The notes under the pieces: model-generated
Told to the model about the DNA's origin: nothing
Database searches by the model: none
Seen by the model: the letters and a program-made list of their open reading frames with translations, nothing else
In this document: piece by piece, positions 30,234 through 63,512 of the stretch
Numbering within the stretch: the stretch's first letter is position 1
How the letters are laid out: every line of letters starts with the position of its first letter
Assembly (NCBI GenBank): GCA_902597095.1
Contig: CACJWK010000007.1
Span: 1-64,000 of the forward strand
Direction of reading: 5' to 3'
From: an uncultured Pseudohongiella sp.
GTDB lineage: Bacteria; Pseudomonadota; Gammaproteobacteria; Pseudomonadales; Pseudohongiellaceae
Length of the DNA: 64,000 bases
Program-made: the position numbers and the translations under genes

Positions 30234-31601
30234 CTAGGACTCGGGCTCACTGCTGAGCCTGTCGCCGGGCCCGTAAGTGGAAAAGCTGCCAATCAGAGAA
30301 AACCGCCTAAAGAGTTCATACATACCCCAGAGCACTCCGATCACAACGATCAGCAACATGCCCCAGCGCATCAAGGCCGCGAGAAATATCCCATCCATTA
30401 CTGGCGCCTGATAGCTGAACTGGGACAACTGCCCTCCTCGATCAAGCATCCAATGCCAGGCGCTGTGGGCAAGCAAGGCGGACAACAGAATCGCTCCAAT
30501 GCGCTCATCAACCAAATATTTGAACAAAAGGTTGAGAATCGGAATAACCAGAATTAGTATCAGCAGCTGCCCAAGTTCTACCCCGATGTTAAATGCCAGC
30601 AGAGATGAAAAGAGATGCCCTCCAGCGAACTGCAGGGTTTCACTGAATAAAAAGGAAAAGCCGAACCCATGAATCAAACCGAATCCGAACGTTACGATCC
30701 AACGGTGCTCCAGTTTGGCACCGACAATGTTTTCAAAGGCCATATAAACAATTGAGAGCGCAATCAGTGTCTCGATGAGCGGCGGAAACCAGAGCACATT
30801 CGGCGCCAGACCGAACGCTGAACTGATCAGCGTGATGGAATGCGCGATGGTAAACGAGGTGACAACCGGAATCAGGGCTCTGACACGACGCAGCGGTATG
30901 ACCAGACAAAACAGAAACAGAAGATGATCGATACCTTCGAGAATGTGCAGAAACCCCATCTCGACAAATCGCAAGGCTGCCTGATGCCAGCGAGGGTCAA
31001 GCTCAACAAGGCCGGGATTGCCAAGGTAGTTGAAAACTCTTTCAGCACCTGTCGGAACAAGAAACCTCAGCACGGTCGTTGTCTCTTCTGACAGAGTGCC
31101 CAGCTCCGGGTTCACGGAAAATTGCGAATCTTCAGAGTCGATCGGGTAGGTCACCAGAATGTCCAGCACACCTTGGCGCCAGAACAAGTTGACATCATCA
31201 TCCAGGGGCTCCGAAAGGATGTTTTCCATCGCGGTCTCAAAGTCGCGGAAAGTTCGATTCGAGGGCAGAGAAACCCGGGTCGTGACCAATTCCTTTTCAG
31301 TCAGCTCGACCCCATTTTCGAAAAAATTAATGGAATCAGTAATGTAGACGCGGGCAGCCTCCTCCTGGGCCGACTCGGCTCCGGATATCTGCAGATAGCC
31401 GGGCCCCCGCAAAGGAAACACAATCTCGCTGAGTGCCTCCATGGGGACTCTCAGCAAGGCGGTCAGCTCATTTCCGGCTGGTTTCACGAATGCGTAGACG
31501 GTCACCCGCGATGGAATATCATGGGCATGGGTCGCTGAAGACCATCCCACAGCGGCAGCCAGCAGTACCAAACACTCAGCAAAGCGCCGTATTCGCTTCA
31601 T
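30234..31601 (-). CDS. HupE/UreJ-like membrane protein with large extracytoplasmic domain
   Basis: A 455-residue protein. It has a signal-like N-terminus (MKRIRRFAECLVLLAAAVGW), a soluble region to about residue 205, then about seven membrane helices with His-containing motifs: HILEGIDHLLFLFCLVIPL, FGLIHGFGFSFLF, AHSAWHWMLDR. This is the HupE/UreJ-2 family, related to nickel or cobalt permeases but of unproven substrate. The frame extends 15 codons upstream, but the ATG at 31601 follows an AGGGA Shine-Dalgarno. It is divergent from the PAL-like gene, which together with the conserved His suggests a metal-transport link (inference). Confidence 0.75.
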   Translation of the reverse strand: MKRIRRFAECLVLLAAAVGWSSATHAHDIPSRVTVYAFVKPAGNELTALLRVPMEALSEIVFPLRGPGYLQISGAESAQEEAARVYITDSINFFENGVELTEKELVTTRVSLPSNRTFRDFETAMENILSEPLDDDVNLFWRQGVLDILVTYPIDSEDSQFSVNPELGTLSEETTTVLRFLVPTGAERVFNYLGNPGLVELDPRWHQAALRFVEMGFLHILEGIDHLLFLFCLVIPLRRVRALIPVVTSFTIAHSITLISSAFGLAPNVLWFPPLIETLIALSIVYMAFENIVGAKLEHRWIVTFGFGLIHGFGFSFLFSETLQFAGGHLFSSLLAFNIGVELGQLLILILVIPILNLLFKYLVDERIGAILLSALLAHSAWHWMLDRGGQLSQFSYQAPVMDGIFLAALMRWGMLLIVVIGVLWGMYELFRRFSLIGSFSTYGPGDRLSSEPES

Positions 31602-31764
31602 CCTATTCCCTAAAATGGTTGTCTTACTTATATTTTTTCTATTCATTACAGATACTTATGAAAAATATGCCGCAGCAGGGTAGCCGGAGATAACTCGCCG
31701 CGCAACAGTGTGATAATGGACTGTTACAAATTCTTACAAGTCTACGTGGGATAAAGAAGAGCGT

Positions 31765-31852: not shown

Positions 31853-33049
31853 ATGATAAACAAGAAACTGGCGATCGGCTCATTCCTGACAGTAAGCTTG
31901 GTTGCGCTGGGAATCGGTCAATCAAAGCTTCAGGACCCTACCATTGCAGCCAGCAATGACGTAATGGCCCCGGCCTTCCTGGTAGACCCGCTGTGGCCCA
32001 AGCCACTCCCCAATCACTGGATCACCGGTAACACCATTGGTGTGGATGTGGATGACAGAGATCACATCTTTACGGTACACAGAAATACTGAAAACATGTT
32101 CGGTGGACGCACTGAAATCGGACTGGCACTCGGCGTGGCAGAATGCTGCACACCGGCACCTCCTATTCTTGAATACGACATCGAAGGCAACCTGATCAAC
32201 GCGTGGGGCGGTCCGGTCGAGGGAGCCCCTTACCAGTGGCCGGAGTCAAACCACGGCATCGAAGTCGCTGCCAACGGTGACGTCTGGATTGGTGGCAACG
32301 GCGGTCCTGATTCTCACGTGCTGGTTTTCACACGGGACGGCGAATACATTCGAACGGTCGGAGTTCCCGGCGAGGAATTCGACAGCAACAGTACAACTGC
32401 ATTTGGCCGCGTTGCCGAAATCGCCATCGATGAAGACGCCGGTGAAGCCTACTTTGCCGACGGCTACGTCAACAAGCGGGTTGCCGTGGTCGACGTGGCG
32501 ACCGGTGCGTTCAAGCGTTACTGGGGCGCCTACGGCAGCACGGACATAGACGACGACGCCGATGACACCTACACTCCAGGTCAACCGGGTCCGGACGTTT
32601 TCCGCGGGCCAGTTCACTGCGCAGAGCCTTCCAATGACGGCCTGATTTATGTGTGCGACCGAGGAGCTGACCGGGTGCAGATTTTCCGCCCCGACGGAAC
32701 CTTCGTGAGCGAACATATCTACAACCCGGCAACGCTTGCTCAGGGATCTACCTGGGATATCGCTTTCTCACCGGATGAAGATCAGGAATTCATCTACCTG
32801 GCAGATGGTCAGAATTTCAAGATCTCCATTATCGATCGTGCGTCAATGGAGGTACTGTACACCTTCGGTGACGGTGGCCGTCAGCCTGGACTGTTCTACG
32901 CACCGCATAGCATTGCCACGGATTCCGAGGGTAACATCTACACCACGGAGACCTATGAAGGTAAGCGCGTACAGAAGTTCCTGTATCAGGGTATGCGCCC
33001 GGTCACCGTCAGAGACCGCGCACCAACCTGGCCAGCTTCAGAGCTGTAA
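31853..33049 (+). CDS. Secreted NHL beta-propeller, peptidyl-hydroxyglycine lyase (PAL)-like
   Basis: A 398-residue exported six-bladed propeller (signal MINKKLAIGSFLTVSLVALG). It aligns by motif with the lyase half of eukaryotic peptidylglycine amidating monooxygenase. FTVHRNTEN (R77) matches FHRGDHVW with R533. SNHG (H134), PVHCAE (H255) and APHSIA (H352) sit where PAL has its zinc ligands H585, H690 and H786. ADGYVNKR (Y205) matches DGYCNSR with Y654, and CDRGADRVQIF (R270) matches ADRENGRIQCF with R706. PAL Met784 is replaced (A350). PAL cleaves alpha-hydroxyglycine peptides to amides; the real substrate here is unknown. It has an AGGAG Shine-Dalgarno and a terminator after it. Confidence 0.75.
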   Translation: MINKKLAIGSFLTVSLVALGIGQSKLQDPTIAASNDVMAPAFLVDPLWPKPLPNHWITGNTIGVDVDDRDHIFTVHRNTENMFGGRTEIGLALGVAECCTPAPPILEYDIEGNLINAWGGPVEGAPYQWPESNHGIEVAANGDVWIGGNGGPDSHVLVFTRDGEYIRTVGVPGEEFDSNSTTAFGRVAEIAIDEDAGEAYFADGYVNKRVAVVDVATGAFKRYWGAYGSTDIDDDADDTYTPGQPGPDVFRGPVHCAEPSNDGLIYVCDRGADRVQIFRPDGTFVSEHIYNPATLAQGSTWDIAFSPDEDQEFIYLADGQNFKISIIDRASMEVLYTFGDGGRQPGLFYAPHSIATDSEGNIYTTETYEGKRVQKFLYQGMRPVTVRDRAPTWPASEL

Positions 33050-33071
33050 GCCACAGCCAGACCGGCTTAAC

Positions 33072-33107
33072 AAAGCCCGGTTCTCTGTCGCGAGAGCCGG
33101 GCTTTTT
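33072..33107 (+). terminator. Rho-independent terminator after the PAL-like gene
   Basis: A 9-bp stem AAAGCCCGG / CCGGGCTTT, extended inward by TCTC/GAGA, is followed by TTTTTC. Confidence 0.85.
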
Positions 33108-33260
33108 CATGCCTTCAATCCGGATTAGAAAACTGATACCGAGATAATCTTTTCAGTCAAAAACGATCGATGCCCGTGGGTGCAAGCCTTGAACACTCGA
33201 GACTCAGGAATTATTCTCACTGATAACAGATTCGCCTGCCGCATGAGCCGAGGGACTTTC

Positions 33261-33800
33261 ATGACCAGACTTACTTTCACCTTTTTGCTGTGCCTCAGCT
33301 CATTTGATCTGAAACCGGTGGTAGCTGATGAGCTGACTATTGACTTCACGTACGGGCGCAATGTGAATATTGGCAGTATCAGCCCGAGCCTGCATTTAGC
33401 GCCTTTCGCTGACGAGCGTGGTCTTGCAGATCCAAATACCATTGTCGGAGAAGATCGGGCACAGTTGCCTCTGGCAGATCTGATCAGAGACGCCTTCGAG
33501 CAGGGCTTCAACAAGGGCGGTGTCGAATTTGTGGACGAGGGTGCTGACATGGAAATTGTCGGCACTTTGCTCAGCTCTGAACTGGAAACTGTTGACAGAG
33601 CAGGAGTTCCCACCCTACAGCTCACCATTCGCACTGGCATTGAGCTTCGCGGCGGTGGCCGCATCATCTGGTCGACCACGCTGTTCGGGCGCGGGCGCGT
33701 TCCGGTGGAGGAAGGCCTTGGCAGTGCGGTCAATGCCTCACTTGAGCGACTGGTGCGCGAGCTTTTACGAGACGACTATTTCCTGCTCGAGCTGGAATAA
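33261..33800 (+). CDS. Small exported protein of unknown function
   Basis: A 179-residue protein with a signal peptide (MTRLTFTFLLCLSSFDLKPV) and a mixed alpha/beta mature region. I do not recognise it. The later part (ADMEIVGTLLSSELETVDRA ... GGGRIIWSTTLFGRGRVP ... ASLERLVRELLRDDYF) recalls the shape of YajG-type lipoproteins, which are built from a similar strand-helix pattern, but there is no lipobox. The ATG at 33261 has GAGGG six bases upstream and precedes the signal peptide, so it was preferred to earlier in-frame starts. It converges on the nuclease-fold gene with a 10-bp gap. Confidence 0.65.
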   Translation: MTRLTFTFLLCLSSFDLKPVVADELTIDFTYGRNVNIGSISPSLHLAPFADERGLADPNTIVGEDRAQLPLADLIRDAFEQGFNKGGVEFVDEGADMEIVGTLLSSELETVDRAGVPTLQLTIRTGIELRGGGRIIWSTTLFGRGRVPVEEGLGSAVNASLERLVRELLRDDYFLLELE

Positions 33801-33810
33801 CATCGGAAAT

Positions 33811-34605
33811 TCAGCTGCGGCAGCCGAGCATGGGATACAGCGACAGTTCAACTTCCTCCGTTGCCGCCGGAAAAAAATCCAACCCGCTCAGCGCTTCTAT
33901 CTCTTCAATGCCAGCACGCAAGTCGCAGTGGTGAACGTGCACTGCAGTGTCTTGCGGAAAAAGAAACGCAGCGGCACGTGCGTCTTCTGTTAGCACAATT
34001 TTAAAAAATTTGTCCGGTATACGATACCCACTGTCTTCTGTCAGTAGCCTTGGTTCCGCCTCAGGGTCAAAGATCGCTCCAGTATAGACATAAACCGCTG
34101 CTTCACGATTCACCAAATTTCGAAGCGACCAGTCAAGCCCGTACCAGGCTCCCTGACTCAGACTACGGCTGCGCACCGTGGCGTTCGAGGCAAAGTTGAC
34201 TTCACGCCAGTAGGGAGTTCCCGCAAAGCTGACCAGTGGCACATGTTGTGACCGCACGTATTCCTGCTCCGCCAGCGCCGCGAAATCTGCAGCGGTAAGC
34301 GATTCCGAAACCCAATCATCCCGGATGAGATCGCGCGATAAACTGGAAGCAATGCCAATCGACCCGGGCGTCACTTGATACGCTGCCCAGACTGCCGATT
34401 TCCTGCCCTCGTCATACGACAAGGTGTAGACCGATCTCACCAGAATCTGGTTGCCGCTGGAACCTTCCGGGCATCCGAACAGGCAGTGGCCGAACCGATA
34501 GATCTGCGCCTGAGCGGGAAGGGTCAACACGCCAGCCATCATAAGGGCACAAGCCTTACCCGAACGCAGGAAGTTGTGGCTCAAAACGCGCTTCAATGGG
34601 AACAT
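33811..34605 (-). CDS. Exported DNA/RNA non-specific endonuclease-fold protein, active site altered
   Basis: A 264-residue protein with signal peptide (cleavage near AQA-Q34). The family layout of Serratia-type nucleases is visible: VYTLSYDEGRKSAVWAAYQV, a histidine in the position of the DRGH motif (RSQH, H121), NFASNATVRSRSLSQGAW, then VYVYTGAIFD. The catalytic His is kept, but Arg87 of DRGH is Ser and the magnesium ligand Asn119 (LNQGAW) is Ser150. Glu127 is Asp158. Activity is therefore doubtful. The start was set at the ATG before the signal peptide; the Shine-Dalgarno is weak. Confidence 0.65.
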   Translation of the reverse strand: MFPLKRVLSHNFLRSGKACALMMAGVLTLPAQAQIYRFGHCLFGCPEGSSGNQILVRSVYTLSYDEGRKSAVWAAYQVTPGSIGIASSLSRDLIRDDWVSESLTAADFAALAEQEYVRSQHVPLVSFAGTPYWREVNFASNATVRSRSLSQGAWYGLDWSLRNLVNREAAVYVYTGAIFDPEAEPRLLTEDSGYRIPDKFFKIVLTEDARAAAFLFPQDTAVHVHHCDLRAGIEEIEALSGLDFFPAATEEVELSLYPMLGCRS

Positions 34606-34825
34606 GGTTGGGTTGGCAGTATCCTGGTTGACTAGCTCTATTCTCGCACTTCTGCAGCCCGGATCGAAGCACCAAAAGGTCAGCGATGAAAGCAGGTTAG
34701 GCTCTACTGCCCGCGACCGGCCCGGCAAATCTCAAGCCGTTGCCGGTGCACTAATACGCCATTATTTCTGAAGGCCCCCCTCAGAGTGCCTTGTGGTTGA
34801 TGGCGATCCTCTCTAATGAACCCGC

Positions 34826-34900
34826 TTGAAACCGGCGCAAAGCCTGCGTAATCGGCGGAAAAATCTGCTCAATTATTCAAATTAAAGGACTTTTTAATTT
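34826..34900 (+). promoter_or_regulatory. Candidate promoter and AT-rich inverted repeat before the heme-copper gene
   Basis: TTGAAA and TAATCG are separated by 17 bases (34826-34854). Just downstream, AAATTAAA and TTTAATTT form a perfect 8-bp inverted repeat with a 6-base spacer (34879-34900). The repeat lies about 75 bp before the start codon and could be an operator or a leader hairpin. The -10 match is weak. Confidence 0.35.
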
Positions 34901-34976
34901 TCAGGATGCCCAGTCATCGCTTCGAGCCTACACTTCGTACCTGCAATATATCCTGCAAGTAGCTTAGGAGATCAAC

Positions 34977-36707
34977 ATGCGTACAGTTTCATTCCTGCTC
35001 GGATTGGCTGCGGTTTTTGCTGCAGCGACCTTGGCAAGCATCCCGGTCAGTGCGGGCGAGCGCATCAGTGACTTTTCACTGATCGATCAGCACGGAAAAT
35101 TCTTTCAGCTGAGTCGTCAGGCTAATTTTGATGCCATCGTGTTCATGGCCCATGAGGACAGCAGAGACGTTCGTCGTGCGGCCTCAGACCTGGCCGACCT
35201 CAGCACGCAGTTCGAAGGGCAAAACGTCGGCTTTTACTTCATCAACTCTACCGGTGAAACGGACAAGGCAGAAATTCGGGAATCTGCAGATGATGCAGAT
35301 ATCAAGCTGCCAGTTCTGATGGATGAGACACAGTTAGTGGCCCGCGAACTCGGCATTGAGCGCGCAACCGACGTAGTCATTCTTGACCCGACCGCGCTTG
35401 AGCTGGTCTTCCACGGAGCGCTCAATGATCGCTGGGCTGAGGACACCAGGTCGCGACGGGCTTCAGATCATTATGCAGCTGACGCGCTCAGCCAGTTTCT
35501 GGCAGGCGAGTCCGTCACCGCCAGACAGACCTCATCGAAGGGCGACGCAATCACTGTGGCAGCTGTCAAAGACATTTCCTACGCCAATGACGTCGCGCCC
35601 ATTCTGAAAGAGCGCTGCGTGAGCTGCCACATGGAAGGTGGAATCGCACCCTTCGCCATGAACAGCCACCAGATGGTCCAGGGCTGGTCTCCCATGATCC
35701 GCGAGGTTCTCTACACCAAGCGCATGCCTCCGGGCCAGATTGATAACGAGTACGTTCACGACTTTCGCGATGTTGCTCACATTACGGTTGAAGAGACCCA
35801 GACATTGGTTAACTGGATCGAGAACGGGGCGAAAAACACAGACGACGCCGATCCGCTCGCCGAATATTCTCCTGAGCTGGTAAAGTGGGCCTACGGTGAG
35901 CCGGACATGGTGATTCCGGTTCCTCCTCAGCAGATCCCGGCGACCGGAATTCAGGACTATCGCAACATACCGGTTGCGCTGGATCTCGAAGAAGATATCT
36001 GGGTCAAGGCGATCGAGTTTGAAGCAGGCGATCCAACCGTTCTTCACCACATCATCGCTTTTGCCTACGGTCCCGACGGTATGAACCAGTTTGAGATTCT
36101 CAATCAAGGGATTGGGCTGGGTGCCTATGCGCCGGGCAACGAAATCAACACCTACCCAGAGAATTCGGGCTTCCCGCTTAAGGCCGGTGGAGGGCTCTTC
36201 CTCCAGCTTCACTACACCACCTCTGGGAAAGAAACGACAGATGCCTCTGAGATCGCACTCTATTTGTGGGATGAAGAGCCAGAGCGTCAGGTTCTGGGCG
36301 GATCTGCCGCGGACTTGGATATCAACATCCCACCGTTCGCACAGCGCCACGAGATGGTTGCCACAGCAAAGTTCAGAAAGGATTCCTACATCACCATGCT
36401 CGGTCCCCACATGCACTACCGGGGCCATGACGCCAATTTCACTCTGGCCTATCCAGACGGCTCGAGTGAAGAAGTGCTGAACGTTCCGAACTACCAGTTC
36501 AACTGGCAGAAGGTGTACGACTTTAAAGAACCCAAGTTTGTGCCGGCAGGGACCGAAATGGTATTTACCGGCACGTTTGACAATTCCGAATTCAATCCGT
36601 CTAACCCGGACGCCTCGCAAACCCTGTCATGGGGTGAACAGACCTGGCAGGAAATGTTTTTCGGTTTCTACCGCTACGTTGAAGCTGGTAATCCAGGCGG
36701 CGAATAG
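34977..36707 (+). CDS. Secreted redoxin-like / heme c / PHM-like copper monooxygenase protein
   Basis: A 576-residue exported protein in three parts. After the signal peptide, residues 26-180 resemble an AhpC/thioredoxin fold (ISDFSLIDQHGKFFQLSRQA) but have no cysteine. Residues 200-290 hold one heme c site: C214-V-S-C217-H218 with probable axial M250 in RMPP. Residues 310-576 match type II ascorbate-dependent copper monooxygenases: H357-H358 and H412 (CuH site), H478-M-H480 and M560 in QEMFFGFYRY (CuM site), so the full ligand set of PHM is present. Heme could deliver electrons in place of ascorbate (inference). TTAGGAG Shine-Dalgarno; monocistronic. Confidence 0.8.
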   Translation: MRTVSFLLGLAAVFAAATLASIPVSAGERISDFSLIDQHGKFFQLSRQANFDAIVFMAHEDSRDVRRAASDLADLSTQFEGQNVGFYFINSTGETDKAEIRESADDADIKLPVLMDETQLVARELGIERATDVVILDPTALELVFHGALNDRWAEDTRSRRASDHYAADALSQFLAGESVTARQTSSKGDAITVAAVKDISYANDVAPILKERCVSCHMEGGIAPFAMNSHQMVQGWSPMIREVLYTKRMPPGQIDNEYVHDFRDVAHITVEETQTLVNWIENGAKNTDDADPLAEYSPELVKWAYGEPDMVIPVPPQQIPATGIQDYRNIPVALDLEEDIWVKAIEFEAGDPTVLHHIIAFAYGPDGMNQFEILNQGIGLGAYAPGNEINTYPENSGFPLKAGGGLFLQLHYTTSGKETTDASEIALYLWDEEPERQVLGGSAADLDINIPPFAQRHEMVATAKFRKDSYITMLGPHMHYRGHDANFTLAYPDGSSEEVLNVPNYQFNWQKVYDFKEPKFVPAGTEMVFTGTFDNSEFNPSNPDASQTLSWGEQTWQEMFFGFYRYVEAGNPGGE

Positions 36708-36723
36708 ACCTACCCTCGACACT

Positions 36724-36759
36724 AAAAACCCGGCCGCGTCACGCAGCCGGGTTTTTTTA
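36724..36759 (+). terminator. Rho-independent terminator after the heme-copper gene
   Basis: An 11-bp stem AAAAACCCGGC / GCCGGGTTTTT with an 11-base loop, followed by a T-run. It insulates the gene from the amidohydrolase operon. Confidence 0.9.
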
Positions 36760-36941
36760 TGTCTAAGGAAGGCAAACGTTCAGACACCTTGCCAGTGTGG
36801 CCGGCATTCTTTCAACAACTGCTCTCAATGCCGGAATATGTTTGCAAGCTGCTCGTCAATGCGTTTGCAGCCGATGGGCCTGTGGTAGACTCACTCCAAC
36901 GACTTTCAACGAAACGCCGACCGCATTCCTGACAATTGACC

Positions 36942-40908: not shown

Positions 40909-42087
40909 ATGAGTATTGATGGAGCCTATCAGCCCGGCCGCCATTTTCTGCAAATTCCCGGACCCTCTAATGTTCCGGAAAGTGTGCTCAGGGCCATGGC
41001 TCAACCGGTCATTGATCACCGTGGCCCGGAATTTCCGGCCCTGACGTTCAGATTACTGGAGAAGCTCGCGCCCGTATTCAACACTGAGTCCTCTGTCTTT
41101 ATCTATCCGGCATCCGGTACCGGTGCATGGGAATGCGCCCTGCTTAATTGCCTGTCACCCGGAGATAAAGTACTGGCTTTTGAAACCGGACACTTCGCCA
41201 CTCTTTGGAAAGAAGTCGCTGAAAAGCTGGGGCTTCACATCTTATGGATACCTGGAGACTGGCGCCACGGGGTCGATCCGTCAGTCGTGGAGGAAAAACT
41301 GTCAGAGGACAGCAAGCATGAAATACAGGCCGTTCTGGCTGTCCACACGGAAACATCAACCGGTGTCACCAGTCGAATCGGCGATATCAGGCGCGCGATA
41401 AACAAAGTAAGGCACCCTGCTTTACTCATAGTTGATGCTGTCTCCTCTCTCGCTTGCACAGAGTTTCTGCATGATGACTGGGGAGTGGATGTGACGGTCA
41501 GCGCCTCACAGAAGGGGCTCATGCTGCCACCGGGATTGAGTTTCAATGCAGTCAGCGAGCAGGCGCTGGAGCGCTCCAGAGTGAATCAGAGCCACCACTC
41601 CTACTGGCAGTGGGAAGCCATGGCAAGCAACAACGCCAAAGGCTATTTCCCCTACACGCCCAGTACCAACCTTCTCTACGGTCTGGATGAAGCGTTAAAT
41701 TTGTTGCTTGCAGAGGGGCTCGACAAGGTGTTTGCCCGTCACTCTCGTCTGGCCGCAGCCACCCGTGCGGCAGTCAATGCCTGGGGGCTGGAAAATGTCT
41801 GCATGAATTCAGAGGAATATTGCAATTCAACGACAGCGGTCTTCGTGCCCGAAGGCTTCGATGCGGATGATTTAAGAATGATCATTCGTGAGAGATTCAA
41901 CATGTCATTGGGGACGGGTCTGGGCAAACTTAAAAACAGAATCTTCCGCATTGGCCATATTGGTGACTTCAACGACCTGATGCTCATGGGCACGCTGAGT
42001 GGTGTGGAAATGGGCCTGAAACTCGCGAATATTCCCCATCAACCGGGAGGCGTTGAAAGCGCAATGGATGCGCTCAGCAAAAGCTAG
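40909..42087 (+). CDS. Class V aminotransferase, serine/alanine-glyoxylate type
   Basis: A 392-residue PLP enzyme of the AGXT/SgaA group, which transfers amino groups from serine or alanine to glyoxylate. Visible features are LQIPGPSNVPESVLRAM at the N-terminus, ASGTGAWECALLNCLSPGD (residues 68-86), VHTETSTGV, VDAVSSLACTEF (PLP-binding Asp) and the Schiff-base lysine K202 in SASQKGLMLPPG. It is 29 bp after the acylase and 41 bp before the GntP permease, suggesting it acts on an amine released by the upstream hydrolases. Confidence 0.9.
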   Translation: MSIDGAYQPGRHFLQIPGPSNVPESVLRAMAQPVIDHRGPEFPALTFRLLEKLAPVFNTESSVFIYPASGTGAWECALLNCLSPGDKVLAFETGHFATLWKEVAEKLGLHILWIPGDWRHGVDPSVVEEKLSEDSKHEIQAVLAVHTETSTGVTSRIGDIRRAINKVRHPALLIVDAVSSLACTEFLHDDWGVDVTVSASQKGLMLPPGLSFNAVSEQALERSRVNQSHHSYWQWEAMASNNAKGYFPYTPSTNLLYGLDEALNLLLAEGLDKVFARHSRLAAATRAAVNAWGLENVCMNSEEYCNSTTAVFVPEGFDADDLRMIIRERFNMSLGTGLGKLKNRIFRIGHIGDFNDLMLMGTLSGVEMGLKLANIPHQPGGVESAMDALSKS

Positions 42088-59006: not shown

Positions 59007-60701
59007 TCAGTCGAGGCTCTGGTAGTAAGTAAAGTAACCCGTAAACATCTCTTCCCAACTGTTGAATCCAAATGGGATTTCGAGGTTCGGATCTGGGTTG
59101 GTAGGGTTCGACTCTGAATTATCCAAAGCACCCGTCACACGTAGCGTCGAGCCTGCAATAGCAGTAACCGGCTCGTCGAGCAGGTAATGGGGCTGCCAAC
59201 CATAGTTGAACGCCGGCACACTGAATAACTGATTGCTGACGCCACTCGGTGCTTCTACCTCAAAACGCATTTTTTTGCCGCGATAATTCATTCGTGCACG
59301 CACGCCGGTAATCACGATATTTTCATCAAGCGAGTGGCTGGCTTGAAGAGCAAACTCCGGCGTGTTGGGAGGAAGTACGAACCGCGTGCCGATCGCTTGA
59401 ACTCGCTGCTCTCGTGGCAAGGGGAGGTCGCTGAAATACAGTCCCAGTTGAGTTTGATCCACTGTAGACTGACCATTCGTGACATAGTGGAACTGCATTG
59501 ACAGGCGGTAACCAGCCGGAATAAAAGTGCCTACCCCCTCAGGGAACTCATAGACATTAACCTTACCGGGGATGTAGCCAGCAACGAAGCGACGGCTGAC
59601 TGAGGTGCTGACGCGCTCTGCCCCCCAGAAATCCTCTTCGGGTTCGGACACAAAAGTGATCAAATGGTGAAGAACAGTCGGATCACCCGCGCGGTATTGC
59701 ACCGCTTTTACCCACTTGTCTTCGGTAAAGGGCAACTCAATATTGTTGTAGTAGTAATCAAGAACGCCGGTGGAAGGTATCGAATGTTCAGGACCCTGAA
59801 CAATGTAATCCGGTTCTCCAAGTACCCATCCCTTGTTGGATTGCATGTGATGCTCCAGCGGATCGATCTCTCCCTCACCCCGGGGAGCTCCTGCATCAAT
59901 CCAGTGAATCAGGGTCTGCAAATCCTGCTTAGAAACTCCTCTGGCGCTGGCACTATGTCCGACGTAGGGGTCGACCTGCATAGGCGGCATGCGCTTATTC
60001 AGCAGCACCTCGCGAATCATGGGTGACCACCCGAGCAGCATGATGTGGGAGTCCATTGCAAACGGACCTACCCCGCCCTGCACATGACAGTCCAAACAAT
60101 TTTCGATTACTATAGGTGCCACTTCTGATACATAATCCGGAGGCGACTCGAGGTGCCGGCTCCGGGCTGGAAAATCAATCGTGCAACCAGTCGTTTCGAC
60201 AGCAATCGTATCATCCATACTGCCGTCCACTACCGCATTCAACGCATCGTCAAGAGCCTCACTGACGTCCCCGCGGTAGTAAACGGAAAGCCTCTGAGGG
60301 TTAAGCACGAGCACATCGCCGGCCCTGGTGATCTCGAGGGTCTCCGACACCAACTGCCCATCATCTTCCAGCAGAGGAAGGGGCAGATCGAGTGCGCGGG
60401 CGACCTCCCGACCGAGGTCTCTCGCATCCAACAAGATAAAATCAATACCTTGGTCTTCATACGAGGAGTCCAGAGCCGCAAAGCGGTCAAGCATGCTGCC
60501 CATCTCGGCACAGCTACTGTCATACGCCATCAGGGCGAGTGCAGCCCGGTGCTGGTAACGACTAAGTTGGTGAAAAGTTCCGCGATCGTCCAGCAGCGCA
60601 AAGTCGCCAACACGATCAAGGGCTCCGTGAAGAGTCCCGCTTAACGTCGCGCAGCAGACCAAGAAAAAAATTCGCAATGCGCGCTGCCTGGCTTGTTTCA
60701 T
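59007..60701 (-). CDS. Secreted redoxin-like / heme c / PHM-like protein lacking CuM histidines
   Basis: A 564-residue homologue of the 34977 gene with the same three parts: signal peptide, redoxin-like domain (VGDFALLDDRGTFHQLSRYQ) with a single cysteine C64 instead of CxxC, heme c site C202-L-D-C205-H206 with M238 in RMPP, and a PHM-like domain. The CuH ligands H345-H346 and H405 and the CuM methionine M552 (EEMF) are present, but the CuM HxH motif is replaced by R470-M-N472 (VRARMNYRG). Oxygen activation as in PHM is therefore doubtful. The ATG at 60701 is chosen before the signal peptide; the frame is open further upstream and no good Shine-Dalgarno is seen. Confidence 0.78.
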   Translation of the reverse strand: MKQARQRALRIFFLVCCATLSGTLHGALDRVGDFALLDDRGTFHQLSRYQHRAALALMAYDSSCAEMGSMLDRFAALDSSYEDQGIDFILLDARDLGREVARALDLPLPLLEDDGQLVSETLEITRAGDVLVLNPQRLSVYYRGDVSEALDDALNAVVDGSMDDTIAVETTGCTIDFPARSRHLESPPDYVSEVAPIVIENCLDCHVQGGVGPFAMDSHIMLLGWSPMIREVLLNKRMPPMQVDPYVGHSASARGVSKQDLQTLIHWIDAGAPRGEGEIDPLEHHMQSNKGWVLGEPDYIVQGPEHSIPSTGVLDYYYNNIELPFTEDKWVKAVQYRAGDPTVLHHLITFVSEPEEDFWGAERVSTSVSRRFVAGYIPGKVNVYEFPEGVGTFIPAGYRLSMQFHYVTNGQSTVDQTQLGLYFSDLPLPREQRVQAIGTRFVLPPNTPEFALQASHSLDENIVITGVRARMNYRGKKMRFEVEAPSGVSNQLFSVPAFNYGWQPHYLLDEPVTAIAGSTLRVTGALDNSESNPTNPDPNLEIPFGFNSWEEMFTGYFTYYQSLD

Positions 60702-60951
60702 GAGAATTCGGCTTGAGATATGTAACATTTTGTAAAAAAACAACAACATAAAGGCACTGTTTACCGCTTCAATAATGTGGACGCCAATGGAATTGGTCGC
60801 TATCCTAGCTGTCCTGATTATCAGTGCGCAACTTAAACTAACTTGATAAAGCGTGCCTCTCTGTCCCGCCGGACTTTCACTGCCGACGGACGAGAATGAG
60901 CAACTGTTCAATCACTGGATTAGCTGAAATGACTAAATGGAGAGTACATCC

Positions 60952-61939: not shown

Positions 61940-62156
61940 GACCTCAGAACTTTCGCTGATTTCGCCGCTGGGCGATCATATTTAGCCACCCTAAAACGGA
62001 AAAACCCCCTCAAACTCCCGTATTCTGCGCTCTTCAGACTGTTGCAATTTGTTGCACAAAGTCCCGTAAAAAGGCTGTTAACAATGGACTTTTCCCAAGC
62101 CTCCCATTACCATGTAGGGTGGAGATTTGCCTAATATTCCTACCAAGGAGAGCAGC

Positions 62157-63512
62157 ATGAGAAACATGCGTCAAACTACCACCCTGCTTGGCGGAGCCAT
62201 CGCCTTTGCCGTTAGCCTGGGTGCCCACGCTCAAGACCGCGAAATCACCTACAATAGTGATGTAGCGAAAATCATCAACGAAAACTGCGTAGTCTGTCAC
62301 CGCGAAGGTGGTGTGGGCCCGATGCAGTTTGAAAATTTCGAACAAGTTCGCCCCTGGGCACCGCTGATTTCCTACAAAGTGGAAAATCGGGAAATGCCCC
62401 CATACGCCTATGACCAACACATAGGCCTTCAGGACTTGGAGGGCGATTGGCGACTCGAGCAGGAAGAGATCGACACCATCGTCGCATGGGTCCAGCAAGG
62501 CGCGCCTATGGGTGACGTTGATGTTGTTCCCCCGGCCGCGGACCTGCCGGATGCCAACGGATGGACTTTTGAGCCGATGTTCGGCCAGCCGCACATGATC
62601 ATACCATCGAACTCCTATGACATTCCCGCCAATGGCAATGATTTATGGAGCAAGGAATTCGTTGACCCTCAGCTTTCTGAAAACCGCTGTATCAAGGCGG
62701 TGCAGGTGAAGCCACGCGGTGACGCCAAGGCGGTAGTTCATCACGCCAACTCAGACGTTTACGTCTACGACGAAGAGGGCGAACTGCAGCAGTACGGCCA
62801 ACTGACCGAGTACGCTATGGGCAAGTGGGGCGAGTTAATGCCTGAGGGCGTTTGCCGTACTATGCCAGCAAACTCGCTAGTTCGCTGGGATATCCACATG
62901 TTCCCCGGTGGTGTAGGCGCTACTGCGGAAGGCGGCATGATTAAGGATAACGTTGTCGAAATTGGACTATGGTTCCATGATGAGGACTACGAGGAAACTA
63001 ACGATGTCTACAATCAGGATCTGCGACTCTATCCACTTCGCGGTGGTTATGAAAACGGCCACCTCCTTGTGCCTCCGAATGGCTACGCAATGACTCAAGG
63101 CTTTCACTCTTTTGACCATCCGGTCCGCATTGATAGCTTCCAGCCTCACGGGCATCTTAGAATGAACGCTGCGTCGCTTGAGATCTTTGACCCTAAAACT
63201 GGGCGCACCACGCCGATCAGTCAGATCTCAAACTGGAGCGCTACCTGGCATCACAGCCATATCTATGATCCAGACGTGGCTCCGCTCCTGGCGCCAGGTG
63301 AGGTTATGGTAATGAAGCAGTGGTATGACAACACAGCCGATAACCCCAATAACCCTGATCCTGATCAATGGGTGTATGGCGGCAGCCGCACGGGCGACGA
63401 AATGTCTCACGCTTGGATTGCTGTGACTCACCTCGATGAGGAAGGTTATGAGCAACTTCTCGCCGAACGTCGAGAAGCTGAGCAACGCTCCCTGGCTGGC
63501 AGCGACGACTAA
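62157..63512 (+). CDS. Secreted heme c / PHM-like copper monooxygenase protein (short form)
   Basis: A 451-residue exported protein (signal cleavage near AHAQD) without the redoxin-like part. The heme c site is C44-V-V-C47-H48 in NENCVVCHREGGVGPMQFEN, with axial M80 in REMPP. The copper ligand set of PHM can be traced: H195-H196 (VVHHANSDV), H247 (RWDIHMFPGG), H331-G-H333 (FQPHGHLRM) and M416 (GDEMSHAW). This form is thus a complete candidate for copper oxygen chemistry fed by heme. The AAGGAG Shine-Dalgarno fixes the start at 62157; an upstream non-ATG start is unlikely. Confidence 0.8.
   Translation: MRNMRQTTTLLGGAIAFAVSLGAHAQDREITYNSDVAKIINENCVVCHREGGVGPMQFENFEQVRPWAPLISYKVENREMPPYAYDQHIGLQDLEGDWRLEQEEIDTIVAWVQQGAPMGDVDVVPPAADLPDANGWTFEPMFGQPHMIIPSNSYDIPANGNDLWSKEFVDPQLSENRCIKAVQVKPRGDAKAVVHHANSDVYVYDEEGELQQYGQLTEYAMGKWGELMPEGVCRTMPANSLVRWDIHMFPGGVGATAEGGMIKDNVVEIGLWFHDEDYEETNDVYNQDLRLYPLRGGYENGHLLVPPNGYAMTQGFHSFDHPVRIDSFQPHGHLRMNAASLEIFDPKTGRTTPISQISNWSATWHHSHIYDPDVAPLLAPGEVMVMKQWYDNTADNPNNPDPDQWVYGGSRTGDEMSHAWIAVTHLDEEGYEQLLAERREAEQRSLAGSDD

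Follow-up and report, generated by a model that had tools for sequence, protein, structure and literature searches.

A heme-c-fused PHM-like protein encoded close to a PAL-like propeller protein in an uncultured Pseudohongiella

The window analysed here, 64,000 nucleotides of an uncultured Pseudohongiella sp. (contig CACJWK010000007.1, from an assembly of 2.4 Mb that is 77% complete), carries two genes on the forward strand, 1.9 kb apart, whose products resemble the copper half (PHM) and the zinc-propeller half (PAL) of peptidylglycine amidating monooxygenase (PAM). The gene at 31853..33049 (+) encodes a six-bladed NHL propeller and that at 34977..36707 (+) a heme-c-bearing PHM-like protein, and, to the extent that models and alignments can tell, each protein matches its animal counterpart in fold and metal site. 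In the best explanation we can offer, the 34977 protein acts in the periplasm as a binuclear copper monooxygenase with the PHM/DBH fold, whose fused heme c would deliver electrons from the respiratory chain to the copper sites, replacing ascorbate, and which would hydroxylate a C-H bond adjacent to a heteroatom. The 31853 protein would then be a PAL-like metal-dependent lyase, in which three His bind the metal, a Tyr serves as base and two Arg hold the substrate, and would split the resulting hemiaminal or hemiacetal; with other family members, the two would make up a periplasmic route of oxidative C-N or C-O cleavage. We give this explanation as a whole an even chance of being right. The chance that the two proteins share a pathway is likewise about one half, and is supported by a proximity that is both specific and recurrent.

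The PHM-like protein begins, judged by eye, with a signal peptide, and is thus predicted to be exported; there follow a Cys-less redoxin domain, a heme c site (CxxCH at 214, M250) and a copper domain for which models and alignments indicate the PHM double jelly-roll fold. An initial annotation, made by a model from the sequence alone, had named six copper ligands and a heme c in this protein and six PAL-type residues in the NHL protein, and all of these residues are where it had placed them. Aligned with DBH, the ligands are H357, H358 and H412 for CuH and H478, H480 (a His-x-His motif) and M560 for CuM; each is present in 60-61 of 61 aligned rows, and all are present in 13/13 short paralogues. 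Pfam and NCBIfam at E 0.001 returned no copper-monooxygenase match for this protein and no PAL name for the NHL protein, and dedicated profiles were therefore built. Against PF03712 the protein scores 14.9 bits, short of the curated cut-off of 23, and 51 of its 61 relatives match that family at E up to 10, the best at 1.5e-6. It thus shares with PHM and DBH (PF01082/PF03712) the fold and the CuH and CuM ligands, and differs from them in its bacterial origin, in its score under the Pfam cut-off and in the fusion to heme c and a Cys-less redoxin. PHM is known as a eukaryotic enzyme that takes its electrons from ascorbate. Here the fused heme c points to a different donor; that heme c stands in place of ascorbate is plausible, given that the fusion is invariant.

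The NHL protein starts with what looks by eye like a signal or anchor. Profile alignment and model comparison show its six-bladed propeller to be colinear with PAL (PDB 3fvz), and six residues keep register with rat PAL in the alignment (R77/Arg533, H134/His585, Y205/Tyr654, H255/His690, R270/Arg706 and H352/His786), among them the three zinc His, the Tyr and both Arg; they are conserved in the orthologues too. The protein differs from PAL in being encoded by a separate gene and in its membership of a large NHL family of bacteria in which the site varies. Fold comparison ended in a tie between PAL and TRIM-type NHL proteins, and the best NCBIfam match, ScyF (NF035926), reached 72 bits, far under that model's cut-off of 350 bits.

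What might the substrate be? Rat PHM holds the glycine carboxylate of its substrate via Arg240, Asn316 and Tyr318. In the window copy these positions are occupied by Gly476, Phe562 and Phe564, as placed by spacing from the ligands rather than by alignment with rat PHM, because a profile of the short paralogues listed no PHM when run against the PDB. A counterpart of Asn316 occurs in 0/61 aligned rows. Same-genus relatives have divergent PHM-like copies across the NHL gene that retain the Arg and the Tyr, not the Asn, and in some other genera such copies have Ala and Trp at the anchor positions; the host genome lacks such a copy at this locus. The case for peptide amidation by the window pair is weak because the residues that hold the substrate in PHM are absent, and a glycine-extended peptide is an improbable substrate for it.

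The gene neighbourhood is conserved. Of 40 regions fetched around NHL homologues of the bacterial family (up to 20 kb each, with some contigs shorter and one of 6 kb), 34 contain a PHM-like gene: 20/20 of the orthologue regions fetched first and 14/20 of the others, which comprise paralogues, regions from other genera and a further orthologue. The same holds for 16/20 additional regions and for 55/78 regions from a named genome collection, many of which end at contig ends and part of which come from the same organisms as the earlier regions. The usual same-genus order is PHM, PHM and HupE/UreJ together on one strand, next the NHL gene (often doubled) and a gene for a 206-aa protein, followed by a nuclease gene on the opposite strand and by PHM, amidohydrolase and penicillin amidase genes. 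In relative G050 an NHL gene and a short PHM-like gene lie 69 bp apart on the same strand, and in the relative with locus L083 (2862-4587; = L148) a PHM-like gene close to NHL is divided between two overlapping frames.

This proximity exceeds chance expectation. In four nearly complete single-contig relatives (G042, in four contigs, was omitted), 12 of 49 NHL islands lie no more than 6 kb from a PHM-like gene, where 2.4 to 2.5 are expected, and 0/4000 rotations reach that count. Distances were measured from low coordinate to low coordinate, and the counts exclude six fragments of NHL genes, a single partial NHL match (G050 at 908918) and the second halves of split PHM genes. Neither of two control families is clearly enriched near NHL islands (PF00144, 5 vs 2.9 expected; PF01011, at least 6 vs 4.3), and near PHM islands each shows a weak tendency (PF00144, 7 vs 3.6, reached by 5% of rotations; PF01011, at least 8 vs 4.8, reached by 9%); the PF01011 counts are lower bounds, and fragments of this family were merged by hand. 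Sorting by hand in G050 placed 5/7 PAL-type NHL genes near a PHM vs 3/19 genes of other classes, a preference that is not general, since in G072 0/2 PAL-type genes and three other-class genes are so placed.

Co-occurrence of the two families, which the initial annotation had put forward as a check, is borne out within the bacterial family. Among 119 family genomes, 91 have both a close NHL homologue and a PHM-like protein, 7 the PHM-like protein only, 0 the close NHL homologue only and 21 neither (a hand count at E below 1e-120 for NHL and up to 1e-30 for PHM-like proteins, thresholds set after viewing the data). The 21 belong to three genera, all with weaker NHL matches, so the co-distribution reflects a few events, not 119. 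Across 249 genomes of the phylum, with at most 5-7 candidates scored per genome, strong full-length NHL matches appear in 7, the window's own genome included, and the heme-copper part is matched in 2 (the window's own genome and G214), other matches covering only the redoxin part; the six more distant genomes with strong NHL matches all retain the PAL residue set.

Paralogues abound as well. The host genome, as assembled, has 13 heme-PHM genes and four relatives have 14 to 33; the window pair is therefore one of several, and one instance of a large expansion. A more ambitious proposal is that marine members of the bacterial family run a respiration-powered, periplasmic PAM-type reaction, in which heme-c-fused PHM-like enzymes, fed by cytochromes instead of vitamin C, pass their hydroxylated products on to PAL-like lyases, and that the two have been multiplied into many substrate-specific pairs that scavenge amides and related compounds; we regard this as possible but doubtful.

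Several observations weigh against uniting the two proteins in one pathway. Each gene is followed by a strong terminator-like hairpin and T-run (33072..33108, +, with -27.2 kcal/mol for 33065-33115 and z -5.7; 36724..36758, +, with -21.4 kcal/mol for 36722-36762 and z -5.3), neither listed by a consensus terminator scan, so the NHL and PHM-like genes look like separate transcripts, and between them lies a gene on the other strand for a DNA/RNA non-specific endonuclease (PF01223, 33811..34728, -); the initial annotation had rightly described the pair as not one operon and interrupted by a nuclease-fold gene. The four genomes of the rotation test are relatives and their islands are not independent, and 37/49 NHL islands lie more than 6 kb from any PHM-like gene. 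In the same-genus genomes G072 and G073 the 20 kb around the NHL orthologue (L239, L243) hold no PHM-like gene; second copies of the orthologue in these genomes are L252 and L253. Beyond the bacterial family the co-occurrence breaks down: none of the 6 more distant genomes with PAL-type NHL proteins has a PHM-like gene, so there the NHL protein does not need such a partner. NHL proteins that lack the PAL Tyr or the third His, including His/Glu or Leu variants, are also encoded near PHM-like genes (L199, L200, L217, L226, L227, L230 and L235). Finally, the PAL residues Asp787, a Ca ligand, and Met784 align with Ser353 and Ala350 of the NHL protein, and because of the former replacement we call it PAL-like, not PAL.

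Many of these points would be expected if the two were active enzymes of separate pathways, neighbours only because expanded secreted families cluster in islands. The separate transcripts, the NHL islands and distant genomes without a PHM-like partner, the hydrolase genes within the same island and the weak leaning of PHM islands towards both control families all fit such an arrangement. Neither control family is comparably enriched near NHL genes, however, and the pairing recurs with other paralogues and, in two cases, in the form of tight same-strand runs, and we consider separate pathways rather unlikely.

The initial annotation had gone further and likened the two to PAM acting on one exported substrate; the folds, the metal sites, the conserved neighbourhood and the proximity among paralogues uphold a PAM-like pair, and what lacks support is PAM chemistry by the window pair, with the glycine-extended or N-acylglycine substrates it had suggested. 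In a true bacterial PAM, such exported compounds would be converted into amides and glyoxylate, and the complete PAL residue set would suit this, as would the same-genus divergent PHM-like copies with Arg240 and Tyr318 counterparts beside the NHL gene, and the genes downstream that resemble glyoxylate aminotransferase (40909) and N-acyl hydrolases. Like eukaryotic bifunctional PAM, the locus brings equivalents of the two halves together; unlike it, there are two genes, apparently two transcripts, and a heme c that may replace ascorbate. With Gly, Phe and Phe at the three anchors, the Asn absent from every aligned row, the aminotransferase gene cluster in few regions (4/42), PHM-like genes adjoining NHL genes of altered site, PAL-type NHL genes without PHM-like genes in the distant genomes, a window pair that is one of several and no peptide substrate identified, though no search was aimed at one, we judge a true PAM improbable. 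It is very unlikely, in our view, that the PHM-like protein is instead a copper/heme protein of electron transfer, storage or sensing, with no oxygenase activity, and the NHL protein a binding scaffold. A window paralogue (59007-60911) and some of its relatives have lost both CuM His and kept CuH, the NHL fold is tied with TRIM-type NHL, and PMC6107167 judges the NHL propeller of human NHLRC2 to be a non-enzyme, but the copper ligands and PAL residues are conserved in both window proteins and in their orthologues.

Among the open-licence papers inspected, judged by titles and the openings of abstracts, none dealt with a bacterial PHM fused to heme c or with a PHM/PAL pair in bacteria; PMC8812541 assigns PHM to eukaryotes and PNGase F to bacteria. 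If our preferred explanation of a heme-c-fed monooxygenase and a PAL-like lyase is true, a bacterial heme-wired PHM fold near PAL-like lyases would reveal an ascorbate-free route for this chemistry, offer a candidate bacterial background for both halves of PAM and hint at an unrecognised marine route of organic-nitrogen or ether breakdown. The built-in donor would also allow the supply of electrons to two separated coppers to be studied.

The remaining genes of the locus vary in how constantly they accompany the pair. Divergent from the NHL gene is that of a HupE/UreJ_2 membrane protein (30234..31646, -), whose gene cluster recurs in 32/42 regions compared; few genes accompany the NHL gene as constantly, and the protein is possibly a metal supplier. 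The 206-aa protein (33180..33800, +; gene cluster in 33/42 regions) had no match in Pfam, NCBIfam or PHROG families. Downstream of the PHM-like gene lie genes for an amidohydrolase (PF07969, 36936..38588, +; 19/42 regions), a penicillin-amidase family protein (PF01804, 38528..40879, +; 17/42 regions) and the aminotransferase (40909-42087, +), which resembles aspartate-glyoxylate aminotransferase BhcA at 416 bits, against a cut-off of 650; glyoxylate would be the by-product of PAL. A PADLOC scan listed nothing.

Variant sites are widespread among the NHL paralogues. In one large class the PAL Tyr is replaced by His and the third zinc His by Glu (L202, L205-L208, L017 and others), which suggests a remodelled metal site. 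A variant NHL domain of this His/Glu class is joined to a PQQ dehydrogenase domain in one gene for 986 aa (L224, 4302-7262, -). On host contig C28 a tight run (L013, 5647-11879, +) starts with a 292-aa protein of no Pfam family and continues with a heme-PHM-like protein, a cytochrome-PQQ enzyme and a metallo-beta-lactamase+NHL fusion whose PAL Tyr is Glu. In the PHM-like paralogue at 59007-60911 (-) of the window, the CuM His are replaced by Arg and Asn, and the CuH ligands and the Met are retained; of the 25 related places found in 8/10 genomes, 9 show exactly this loss, so that the type is a conserved CuM-less heme-copper protein. Adjoining this gene are two neighbouring short heme-c/PHM-like genes that lack the redoxin and keep all ligands intact (window 62127-63512 and contig C7 63907-65082, +).
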